Part shown: positions 27,970 to 31,874 of the stretch, one piece after another
How positions within the stretch are numbered: position 1 is the first letter of the stretch
Layout of the letters: each line of letters begins with the position of its first letter
Origin: Enhydrobacter sp.
GTDB lineage: Bacteria; Pseudomonadota; Alphaproteobacteria; Reyranellales; Reyranellaceae
Direction: 5' to 3'
Assembly: GCA_025808875.1 (NCBI GenBank)
Contig: CP075528.1
Coordinates: forward strand, 310,001-374,000
DNA: 64,000 bases
The notes under the pieces: generated by a model
The model's database searches: none
What the model was told of the DNA's origin: nothing
Seen by the model: the letters and a program-made list of their open reading frames with translations, nothing else
Position numbers and translations under genes: made by a program

Positions 27970-29301
27970 CTACCTCGCCCGGAGGGCGCAGGTGCGGAAG
28001 CCGGCGAACACATCCGCGCGATCCGGCGTGAAGAAGTTGCGATAGGCCGGGCGAGCGATGCGCGCGCTGGTCGCCCAGCATCCGCCGCGCAGTACCTTGC
28101 GCGTGCCGAACCAGGGCTGTGAATAGTCCTCGTAGGGGTCGGCACTGAACCCGGCGAAGGGCAGGAAGTCGGACGCGGTCCATTCCCAGACGTTGCCGAT
28201 CGTCTGGCGGCAGCCGAAGGCGCTGTCGCCGTCGGGCAGCGCCGCGACGTCGAGCGGTCCGTCGCCGGCGAAATCGAGGTTGGCGCGCGTGGGGTCGGGC
28301 GGCGCGTCTCCCCACGGCCAGCGCCTTCTCGCGTCGGCCAGGTGCGCGCCGTCGGCCGATGGCTGGCCGACCGCGGCGGCTTCCCATTCGGCCTCGCTCG
28401 GCAGGCGCCGTCCGGCCCAGCGGCACCAGGCGTCGGCCTCGAACCAGTTGACGAAGACGACCGGCGCGTGCGGCGCCAGCGGCTCGATCGCGCGATAGCG
28501 CCGCGCCGTCCACACGCCGTCGCGCTTGCCCTGCCAGTAGACCGGCATGGCGGCCTGCCGGCGTTCGCGCCACGCCCAGCCGGCGTCGCTCCAGAACTCG
28601 CGCGCGCCGTAGCCGCCGGCCTCGACGAAGGCGGCGAAGTCGTGGTTGGTGACCGGCGCGCGGGCGATGCGGAAGGGCTCGAGCGTCGTCTCGTGCGCCC
28701 ACTTCTCGTTGTCGAACACGAAGCCCTCGGTGTCGGTCGAGCCCAGTTGCCAGGAACCGCCCGGCACCGCGGCGTCGCCGGCCAGCGCGCCGGCAGAGGG
28801 GCGCGTCGCGCCGCCGAGATCCGCGGGCGGGGCGAAGGACAGCGTCTGGCGCATGTAGGTGAGCGCCTCGACATGCATATCCTCGTGACGGATGGCGAGG
28901 TCGTAGAAATAGCGCGTCGCCTCGTCGATGCCGCCGGCCAGCGCGTCCTCCTGTGCCGCCAGCACGCCGGCGACGTAGCCGAAGGTGCCGGCGCGATCGG
29001 GCAGGTCGAGATGCCAGCGCGTGGCGTGGGCGACGTTGCTCGAATCCCACAGCCGGTCGGCACGCTCGATCAGCGGCACGCGTCCCATCGCGTGACGCAG
29101 CGTCCAGTACTCATGGAACCAGCCGACATGGCCGATCTCCCAGAGCACGGGATTGACGATGTCGAGGCGGGGTCCCAACAATTCCGCCGATGACAGATCT
29201 TCCGTCAAGCGCCGGGTGCGATGACGGACCTCGCGCAGTTGCGCAACGAGTTCGGCCGCGGTCGCGCCGCTGGTCGGCCGATGGGCATGGCGTCGGTCCA
29301 T
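27970..29301 (-). CDS. senA: Selenoneine synthase SenA (EgtB-type non-haem iron enzyme)
   Basis: A 443-aa enzyme with the EgtB/SenA layout. The N-terminal DinB-like four-helix domain (residues ~15-160) carries the three-histidine iron site: H58 in EIGHVGW, and H139 and H143 in RHEDMHVEAL. The C-terminal formylglycine-generating-enzyme-like domain (residues ~185-440) has PVTNHDFAAFVEAGGY, RLPSEAEWEAAA, GNVWEWTASDF and KVLRGGCWAT. EgtB makes a C-S bond to hercynine; SenA makes the C-Se bond in selenoneine synthesis. The divergent partner is a SenB-type glycosyltransferase, which favours SenA over EgtB. ATG at 29301 shares bases with the senB start. No senC (selD-like) or egtD gene is in the window. 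If the partner reading is wrong, this is an EgtB. Confidence 0.82.
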   Translation of the reverse strand: MDRRHAHRPTSGATAAELVAQLREVRHRTRRLTEDLSSAELLGPRLDIVNPVLWEIGHVGWFHEYWTLRHAMGRVPLIERADRLWDSSNVAHATRWHLDLPDRAGTFGYVAGVLAAQEDALAGGIDEATRYFYDLAIRHEDMHVEALTYMRQTLSFAPPADLGGATRPSAGALAGDAAVPGGSWQLGSTDTEGFVFDNEKWAHETTLEPFRIARAPVTNHDFAAFVEAGGYGAREFWSDAGWAWRERRQAAMPVYWQGKRDGVWTARRYRAIEPLAPHAPVVFVNWFEADAWCRWAGRRLPSEAEWEAAAVGQPSADGAHLADARRRWPWGDAPPDPTRANLDFAGDGPLDVAALPDGDSAFGCRQTIGNVWEWTASDFLPFAGFSADPYEDYSQPWFGTRKVLRGGCWATSARIARPAYRNFFTPDRADVFAGFRTCALRAR

Positions 29302-30286
29302 GAGAATCGTGCTTATCACGCCCGACGGCCCGACGGCACGCACCGGCAACCGGGTCGCCGCGGCGCGCTGGGCGCGCATCCTGCGCCGGCTCGGCCATCG
29401 CGTCCGCGTGCTGTCGCGCTATGACGACGAGCCGGCCGACATGATGGTGGCGGTGCATGCCTGGCGCAGCGCCGGATCGATCGAGCGCTTCAAGAGGCGG
29501 CATCCCGACCGCCCGGTGGTCCTTCAGTTGAGCGGCACCGACATCTACGACTATCTGGCCCGCGATCGCGGGCCGACGCTGCGGGCGATGGGGCAAGCCG
29601 ACCGGCTGATCGCGCTGAACGAACGGGCCTGGCGGGTCGTGCCGGCGCGGCTGCGCGGTCGGCTGCGGGTCATCCTGCAATCGGCCGAACCTCCGGTGGC
29701 GCCGCGCCGGCCGGACCGGCGCGCGGTCGTCGTCTCGGCGATCGGGCATCTGCGCGACGTCAAGGATCCGCTGCGCGCCGCCCATGCCGCGCGCCTGCTG
29801 CCGGCGGCGAGCCGCGTCCGGATCGAGCAGGTCGGCCGCGCCTACACCGAGGAATGGGCCGACCGGGCGCGGGCGGAGATGAAGGCCAATCCGCGCTATC
29901 TGTGGCGGGGCGACGTGTCGCGCGCCGAGGTGCGTCGGCTGCTGCGGCGCAGCCACGCCATGGTCGTCTCCTCGCTGAGCGAGGGCGGCGCCAACGTGAT
30001 CTCGGAGGCGGCGGTGGCCGGCGTGCCGATCCTCGCCTCGCGCATGGATGGCAATGTCGGGCTGCTCGGCACGCGCTACCCCGGATACTTTCCCGTCGGC
30101 GACACACGCGCCCTCGCGCGGCTGCTGCGCCGCCTCGAGGACGAGCCGCGCTTCGTCGAGCGTCTCGCCGAGGCGATGCGCACGCGCGCCGCCCTGTTCG
30201 CGCCGGCACGCGAACTCGCCGCGTGGCGGGCATTGCTGCGGGATCTCGCGGTCAACAGACTTCCCCCGAAGCGTCGGCTTCGCTAG
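29300..30286 (+). CDS. senB: Selenosugar synthase SenB (TIGR04348-type glycosyltransferase)
   Basis: A 328-aa GT-B glycosyltransferase matching the family first called TIGR04348, later shown to be SenB, which joins selenophosphate to UDP-GlcNAc-type sugars to make a selenosugar. Key blocks: N-terminal RIVLITPDGPTARTGNRVAA; LQLSGTDIYDYL; ADRLIALNERA; VSAIGHLRDVKDPLRAAHAA; and the C-terminal run SEGGANVISEAAVAGVPIL, then GNVGLLGTRYPGYFPVGDT. ATG at 29300 overlaps the senA ATG on the opposite strand. The basic C-terminus NRLPPKRRLR ends just before the next gene. Donor and acceptor are taken from the known family, not seen here. Confidence 0.85.
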   Translation: MRIVLITPDGPTARTGNRVAAARWARILRRLGHRVRVLSRYDDEPADMMVAVHAWRSAGSIERFKRRHPDRPVVLQLSGTDIYDYLARDRGPTLRAMGQADRLIALNERAWRVVPARLRGRLRVILQSAEPPVAPRRPDRRAVVVSAIGHLRDVKDPLRAAHAARLLPAASRVRIEQVGRAYTEEWADRARAEMKANPRYLWRGDVSRAEVRRLLRRSHAMVVSSLSEGGANVISEAAVAGVPILASRMDGNVGLLGTRYPGYFPVGDTRALARLLRRLEDEPRFVERLAEAMRTRAALFAPARELAAWRALLRDLAVNRLPPKRRLR

Positions 30287-30779: not shown

Positions 30780-31874
30780 ATGGATGTCGGCATGATGATG
30801 GTGTTCGCCAGCTACGGCTGGGAGAACTGCCCGGACGAGCGCGTGTGGGACGAGGAGATCCGCCTCGCCGGCATCGCCGCCGATTCGGGCTTCGATTGCC
30901 TGTGGTCGGCCGAGCATCACTTCAACGACTACTCGTTCGTTCCCGACAACATCCAGCTCATGAGCTACCTGACGGCGCGGCATCCGGACATCGACGTCGG
31001 CACCGCCGCCGTCATCCTGCCGTGGCACGACCCGCTGCGCGTCGCCGAGAACGCCGCCGTGCTCGACCTGCTGAGCCGGGGTCGGCTGCGGCTCGGCCTG
31101 GGGCGCGGCCTGGCGCGGCGCGAGTTCGCCGCCTTCCGCCAGAGCATGGACGAATCGCGCGGCCGCTTCGACGAGGCCGCGCCCATGATCGTCAGGGCGC
31201 TGAAAACGGGCTTCATCGAGGGCGACGGCCCGTTCTACAAGCAGCCGCGCATCGAGATCCGGCCGCGGCCGACCCGTTCCTTCGACGGCCGCATCTACGC
31301 CGTGGCATCGAGCGAGGATTCGATCGAGTCGGCGGCCAGGATCGGCGCCCACATGGTGATGTTCGCCGACCGGCCGTGGGAGATGCGCGCGCCGGGCATC
31401 GACAAGGGCCGCGCGCTGCATCGCAAGTACCATGGCACCGAGCCGCCGGTGCCGATGCTCACCGAGTTCGTGGTCTGCGGCACCGACACTTCGACCCTCG
31501 AGGACGAGGCGCGGCGCTACCAGGGCAAGTTCGTCGAGAGCAACTTCCACCACTACGAGTTCCTCGGCGAGCACTTCAAGAGCGTGAAGGGCTACGACGC
31601 CTACCAGCAGAAGGCCGAGATCGCCCGCAAGGGCGGGCTCGAGGGCGCGGTGACGGGCTTCATGCAGGCGGCGAGCTGGGGCACGCCCGACAAGATCCTG
31701 CGTGGGCTGGAGGCCCGGCGGAAGATCGTCGGCGACTTCGAGATGAACGTCGCCTTCCGCTTCGGCGGCACGCCCTACGAGGTCTGCGAGCGCGGGCTCA
31801 AGCTCTTCGCCAAGGAAGTGCTGCCGGTGGTGAAGAAGTGGGGACCGGCGAAGAAGCCGGCGAAGGCGGCGTGA
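30780..31874 (+). CDS. LLM-class flavin-dependent oxidoreductase
   Basis: A 364-aa luciferase-like monooxygenase. MDVGMMMVFASYGWENCPDE is the opening; AADSGFDCLWSAEHHFNDYS contains the EHH-type block typical of FMN-dependent luciferase-like enzymes; TAAVILPWHDPLRVAENAAV and [18 protein letters not shown] are present. The C-terminal half contains SWGTPDKILRGLEARRKIVG. The EHH block favours an alkanal-type LLM rather than an F420 reductase. ATG at 30780 is preceded by GAGGAGCGCGCC. A lysine/alanine tail ends the protein. The next gene, an SMP-30-type lactonase, lies 58 bases downstream after a strong hairpin. Confidence 0.87.
   Translation: MDVGMMMVFASYGWENCPDERVWDEEIRLAGIAADSGFDCLWSAEHHFNDYSFVPDNIQLMSYLTARHPDIDVGTAAVILPWHDPLRVAENAAVLDLLSRGRLRLGLGRGLARREFAAFRQSMDESRGRFDEAAPMIVRALKTGFIEGDGPFYKQPRIEIRPRPTRSFDGRIYAVASSEDSIESAARIGAHMVMFADRPWEMRAPGIDKGRALHRKYHGTEPPVPMLTEFVVCGTDTSTLEDEARRYQGKFVESNFHHYEFLGEHFKSVKGYDAYQQKAEIARKGGLEGAVTGFMQAASWGTPDKILRGLEARRKIVGDFEMNVAFRFGGTPYEVCERGLKLFAKEVLPVVKKWGPAKKPAKAA

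Follow-up and report, generated by a model that had tools for sequence, protein, structure and literature searches.

A divergent senA–senB pair with probably overlapping start codons

The window, a 64-kb stretch (bases 310001–374000) of a single 5.19-Mb contig, holds intact senA and senB open reading frames where the initial annotation had placed them (Table 1). That annotation had described the two genes as facing each other; instead they diverge, and their likely start codons overlap within one CATG. The longest senA reading frame begins at 29379 (469 aa), but a start at 29301 is more likely, since the CATG is common to both genes, with the senA frame in phase, in 32 of 33 close sequences. 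These sequences are the window, genome G066 and 31 close loci (L107–L137, in which SenB is at least 68% identical). The overlap at 29299–29302 recurs in L107–L137 and L069, and the same ATG was seen in L131, the 33rd sequence, which lies outside the count of 32. With overlapping start codons, the promoter of each gene is probably located within the other; one promoter-like match was found between 27900 and 30350, against 0.2 expected from shuffled sequence.

When the nine window genes flanking the pair were compared with 81 other loci, eight had no match in any of them and the remaining one, LLM at 30780, had a single match, at 23%. Two small open reading frames flanking the pair had no Pfam match. 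The pair itself is the conserved unit in the window's clade.

Table 1. Features of the sen locus, in window coordinates.
Feature	Position	Strand	Basis or remark
senA, predicted selenoneine synthase	27970..29301	-	443 aa from ATG at 29301; NF041186, TIGR04373, residue columns
senB, predicted selenosugar synthase (glycosyltransferase)	29300..30286	+	328 aa; TIGR04348, PDB SenB matches, residue columns
CATG, overlap of two divergent start codons	29299..29302	.	senB ATG 29300–29302 (+), likely senA ATG 29301–29299 (-)
Weak promoter-like match within senA, upstream of senB	29153..29182	+	consensus match only

The glycosyltransferase belongs to the SenB family

The initial annotation had assigned the plus-strand glycosyltransferase to SenB (formerly TIGR04348), naming a score below the family cut-off as grounds for giving up that assignment. 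The protein scored 384.9 bits (cut-off 300), and the assignment holds. It was the only one of four TIGR04348 matches in the genome to exceed the cut-off, and its best matches in the PDB were SenB entries. The closest named SenB loci lie in Reyranella and other alphaproteobacterial assemblies, at no more than 78% identity (among the best 80 of 512 matches), which suggests a Reyranella-like host.

Residues N17, H53, D81, R152, K155, E228 and E236 of the window SenB correspond to N20, H58, D86, R155, K158, E231 and E239 of the Variovorax paradoxus enzyme. Mutagenesis of V. paradoxus SenB covered positions that include K158, N20, E231 and E239, and the K158A and E239A mutants had nearly lost their activity (excerpts of PMC10891094); equivalents of these four residues are kept in the window protein and in 92 of 92 SenB sequences. 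T23, part of a sugar-specificity triad, is replaced by A20 in the window, and this position is T in 52, A in 32 and S in 8 of the 92 sequences. Since T23 varies within the family, and since the published T23A single mutant was only moderately less active (PMC10891094, in the excerpted text), T23 is not family-defining. Judged from the T23 to A20 exchange, the window enzyme may differ from V. paradoxus SenB in its sugar preference. The EGGAHV motif reads EGGANV in the window SenB, with N in all 92 sequences and H in V. paradoxus.

The iron enzyme is probably SenA rather than a second EgtB

The initial annotation had read the minus-strand protein, an EgtB-type three-histidine iron enzyme, as SenA. 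In agreement with this, the protein scored 498.9 bits against the SenA model NF041186 (cut-off 420) and 96.2 bits against the TIGR04373 signature (cut-off 71), whereas its 325.4 bits against the EgtB model TIGR03440 fell below the cut-off of 360. With SenB above its own cut-off, these scores also bear out the preference for selenoneine over ergothioneine. The predicted iron ligands are H58, H139 and H143, and Y393, N422 and F423 are predicted to line the hercynine pocket.

We aligned 104 window-clade rows with 121 V. paradoxus-type SenA, 121 OvsA and 19 EgtB rows, those for OvsA and V. paradoxus being the best 120 matches per query and hence close relatives. Nine positions with conservation of 96% or more in every selenium group were absent from all 19 EgtB rows, and the window protein has all nine; its selenium-branch residues include H92, M142 and C293. 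Two of the nine, M142 and H92, stand where EgtB of M. thermophilum (Mth) has Q137 and R87, which, together with N414 and W415 of that enzyme, we take to have roles in substrate binding.

In trees of these proteins, OvsA, V. paradoxus SenA and EgtB each formed one branch (100/100 for OvsA). The window clade was one branch (support 93) in a 99-row tree, which was thinned for close loci and EgtB and drawn without L129, L132 and L137; in the careful tree (36 locus rows) it contained the V. paradoxus branch. Both kinds of SenA grouped together apart from OvsA with support of 62/75, and none of the alternatives that joined the clade to OvsA (p-AU 0.36), the window group to OvsA (p-AU 0.41) or the window group to EgtB (p-AU 0.38) was rejected. 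The initial annotation had stated that a position firmly within the EgtB clades would count against SenA: the TIGR03440 score speaks against such a position, and the tree alone does not firmly exclude kinship with EgtB.

The protein could be imagined as a second EgtB that makes ergothioneine, lying by an unrelated glycosyltransferase. The shared fold family and iron ligands, the 325 bits to the EgtB model and the EgtB grouping allowed by the tree test would all fit, and yet we give this reading next to no credence. The protein lies below the EgtB cut-off, EgtB residues R87 and Q137 have become H and M, and an EgtB well above the cut-off (553 bits) sits beside EgtD elsewhere in the genome (2.93 Mb, G000:C1:2931435–2933614); on these three grounds we rejected an ergothioneine product. 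Moreover, SenA and SenB are found in one identical set of 12 among the 318 genomes surveyed (see below).

Pocket residues favour selenoneine over ovoselenol

The initial annotation weighed ergothioneine against selenoneine only, and overlooked ovoselenol although OvsA passes the SenA model. OvsA (PDB 8u41, 8ux5) was reportedly described in Nature Chemistry in 2024 as the selenoxide synthase of the ovoselenol pathway. All five OvsA relatives tested (P0121, P0128, P0148, P0150 and P0240) passed NF041186, with 421–436 bits, and many OvsA relatives are named SenA in public records; many Marinobacter proteins carrying that name are likely OvsA. The family name therefore does not decide the product, and a residue test and egtD linkage are required as well.

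The best solved-structure match of the window SenA was OvsA 8ux5; M. thermophilum EgtB and V. paradoxus SenA ranked lower. Because of this match, and because OvsA passes the SenA model, we took seriously the possibility that the protein is an OvsA-type selenoxide synthase, which would place selenium onto histidine and lead to an ovoselenol-type product. Within their aligned part, 8u41 and 8ux5 differ at three pocket sites only (M/Q/A versus Y/N/F). From these letters 8ux5 appears to be an engineered OvsA with SenA-type residues, which would help to explain its first rank among the structure matches.

In Mth EgtB numbering, the three pocket positions are 380, 414 and 415, equivalent to Y393, N422 and F423 of the window protein, which is thus Y/N/F and does not carry the OvsA letters. 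Among 120 V. paradoxus relatives these positions are Y and N followed by F (118) or Y (2), and the 120 OvsA relatives listed are uniformly M/Q/A. Y377 of the M. thermophilum enzyme is named in the excerpted text of PMC10903977. Seven loci (L151, L153, L168, L170, L175, L182 and L183) have T instead of N at site 414 of SenA; they form one branch of gammaproteobacterial loci, and egtD lies in the flank of six.

Over the full length, 10 columns have a letter common to the window clade and V. paradoxus SenA that OvsA lacks, and 9 have one common to the window clade and OvsA that V. paradoxus SenA lacks; in one column V. paradoxus SenA and OvsA agree and the window clade stands apart. Several of the 10 columns also match EgtB, so they say more about pocket type than about descent. 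The choice between selenoneine and ovoselenol rests on the pocket sites, and the column counts do not settle descent.

We consider an ovoselenol product improbable. It draws on the passing scores of the OvsA relatives, the 8ux5 match, the 9 columns joining the window clade to OvsA and the OvsA groupings that the tree did not reject. In Marinobacter, a genus of many OvsA relatives, L174 and L185 have senB beside selD with no senA in the sampled flank; SenB by itself may be no guide to the product, and these two loci may feed OvsA. Against it stand the SenA-type pocket, the TIGR04373 scores (V. paradoxus SenA 93.6 bits, like the window above the cut-off, and OvsA relatives 46–53 bits, below it) and EgtD, which is present in 12 of 12 genomes with SenA and SenB and encoded beside senA in some relatives. 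The pocket residues, TIGR04373 and egtD are the grounds on which we set ovoselenol aside; the tree has no part in this.

SenA and SenB occur in the same genomes

Across 318 genomes of the class, SenB was found in 12 and SenA above its cut-off in the same 12; together with the family scores, this co-occurrence excludes chance. All 12 also had SelD above the cut-off (67 of 318 overall, 2.5 expected) and EgtD above the cut-off (87 of 318 overall, 3.3 expected), SelB was present in 10 (45 of 318 overall) and SelU in one (24 of 318 overall), kinship being ignored in all of these comparisons. Two of the 12, G011 (77% complete) and G124, had SelD and senAB with no match to SelB or SelU. In 4 of the 12, a further EgtB-family match reached E ≤ 1e-80, at most five candidates being scored per genome. 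In up to 8 of the 12, some of which may still have a second EgtB, hercynine may lack an EgtB destination.

The pair was divergent and adjacent in 9 of the 12 genomes. In G210 the two genes lie on different contigs and in G124 at contig ends. G300 keeps both genes 266 kb apart on one chromosome (senB at C1:3190123, senA at 3456686), so the divergent order is not essential. A fused SelD lay in the same sampled stretch as senB in 9 of the 12, the senB stretch of G306 being cut by a contig end, and was absent from that stretch in this genome (G000) and in G066. In G187, egtD adjoins senA. Two genomes, G281 and G187 (loci L086 and L087), carry a standalone SelD in addition to the fused one encoded with their sen genes; this extra SelD has one in-frame TGA and is likely itself a selenoprotein.

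Gene order in named relatives

We also surveyed 80 named loci, the best 80 of 512 confirmed SenB matches, a sample in which distant SenB are under-represented and flanks end at contig ends. senA was found in 73 of these 80 and was divergent from senB in every case, with at most 100 bases between the two profile matches in 68 of the 73. SelD lay in the sampled flank of 39 of the 80 (longer than 600 residues in 28) and egtD in that of 8, on the senA side in 7. Seven of the 80 had senB and SelD with no senA in the sampled flank (L142, L162, L163, L165, L174, L180 and L185). The L142 sequence is cut off immediately to the left of senB; senA of G210, the genome matching L165, is on another contig.

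Within the same best 80 of 512, SelD lay in the sampled flank of 2 of the 31 close loci versus 37 of the 49 more distant ones, and, where at least 5 kb was sampled on both sides, of 1 of 17 close versus 22 of 27 more distant loci. The two close loci with SelD are L136, where it is fused, and L131, where a standalone SelD (L131:4427–5494) adjoins senA in a close relative of the window pair. A putative selenate ABC importer (TIGR04553) was encoded near selD/senB in 19 of the 49 more distant loci (for example L162:11221–14254 and L174:4828–7925, with 17 further loci) and in none of the 31 close ones, again among the best 80 of 512 and with L172 (31% identity) left out of the count; both TIGR04553 binding proteins tested exceeded the cut-off.

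Supply of selenophosphate and hercynine

As the initial annotation had noted, no senC adjoins the pair; a SelD profile search of the 64-kb window found no selD. Its expectation that selenophosphate synthetase is encoded elsewhere also held: of four SelD matches in the genome, one exceeded the cut-off, at 619740–620663, 280 kb from the pair. Hercynine was likewise expected from an egtD outside the window, and EgtD is encoded at 2.93 Mb with about 381.8–381.9 bits (cut-off 290.9). A Sec operon at 1.40 Mb brings together selA, selB, tRNA-Sec and fdhD, of which selA and fdhD are presumptive names taken from sequence. No SelU match, for selenouridine, was found in the genome.

The genome's SelD is a 744-residue oxidoreductase fusion (TIGR03169 + TIGR00476) with a CGGCGAK motif, whose Cys and Lys stand where E. 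coli SelD has C17 and K20. It scored 484 against TIGR04369 ('oxidoreductase/SelD-related fusion, not SelD'), below the cut-off of 700, and is therefore not filed under that family. According to an earlier proposal, a fused NADH oxidoreductase reduces a selenium compound on behalf of SelD (PMC2432076, in the excerpted text). A quick SelD tree covered 63 proteins, 11 of 74 rows having been left out as duplicates or as cut, interrupted or short, and in it the genome's SelD paired with that of the sen-less congener G280 (support 100), outside a group (support 94) that held 35 of 37 senB-linked SelDs and 4 from sen-less genomes. A relocated, sen-specific SelD is unsupported, given this grouping with a sen-less congener's protein. 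SelD phylogeny and the positions of the genes are most simply explained if senAB uses the SelD of the Sec pathway.

Selenoneine might instead be made with selenium from a donor other than a Sec-type SelD, by way of thiophosphate or from a SelD-like enzyme that has gone unseen. The 280-kb distance and the three further SelD-model matches, all below the cut-off, would leave room for this, but we think it very unlikely: SelD exceeds the cut-off in 12 of 12 genomes with SenA and SenB, the fused SelD keeps its CGGCGAK motif, and published SenB discriminates 10–20-fold against thiophosphate (excerpts of PMC10702425).

Proposed pathway and comparison with known systems

The pair very probably makes selenoneine, and would share SelD with selenocysteine synthesis and hercynine with the ergothioneine pair; its chemistry and product are those suggested by characterised relatives. 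By this analogy, SenB would convert selenophosphate and a UDP-sugar to a selenosugar, SenA would use iron and oxygen to join the selenium of that selenosugar to hercynine, and subsequent loss of the sugar would yield selenoneine. The pair would have no selenophosphate synthetase of its own, with SelD common to senAB and selenocysteine synthesis, and would share a hercynine pool with the separate egtB–egtD ergothioneine pair. Besides the pair, the same genome holds EgtD for hercynine, one SelD for selenophosphate and the Sec operon.

On balance we favour the view that a self-contained two-gene cassette, with no SelD or importer of its own, taps the selenocysteine SelD alongside selenoprotein synthesis; within one cell, selenoneine would then compete with selenoproteins for selenophosphate and with ergothioneine for hercynine. 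We judge the window to hold a genuine, stripped-down selenoneine pair. The pathway is a known one; for this clade we found no biochemistry. We found no literature on selenoneine in Reyranella or in alphaproteobacterial biosynthetic gene clusters, though such work may exist in print. New here are the reduced two-gene form, its probable reliance on a shared SelD and a residue-based way to tell SenA from OvsA.

With these results the selenoneine pathway extends to a wide range of alphaproteobacterial genomes and to some from gammaproteobacteria, at a distance from the structurally solved SenA of the V. paradoxus type. The automatic name SenA makes no distinction between selenoneine and ovoselenol enzymes, which three pocket residues may distinguish. 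Selenoneine, selenocysteine and ergothioneine synthesis come together in this genome, which has a single SelD and a single EgtD above their cut-offs and is a natural place to ask how a cell divides its selenophosphate.

The senABC selenoneine cluster of V. paradoxus is said to have been described by Kayrouz in Nature in 2022. PMC9814287, PMC10702425 and PMC10891094 deal with this cluster, which the window pair resembles in having SenA and SenB above their family cut-offs, the SenB catalytic residues and the Y/N/F pocket of SenA. Unlike that cluster, the pair has no adjacent senC, and its SenA belongs to a different branch and has retained a stretch of about 50 residues missing from V. paradoxus SenA. 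OvsA has the HxxMH iron motif and the nine selenium-branch residues in common with the window SenA, and passes the SenA model, whereas OvsA relatives differ in their M/Q/A pocket, in falling below the TIGR04373 cut-off and in forming a branch of their own. The EgtB–EgtD pair is alike in sequence family, in the three-histidine site and, presumably, in its hercynine substrate, but its EgtB carries Q and R at the sites that are M and H in the selenium branch. Finally, the genome's only SelD above the cut-off is of the known fused oxidoreductase–SelD kind; unlike the fused SelDs linked to senB, it lies far from senAB and groups with the protein of a congener that has no sen genes.
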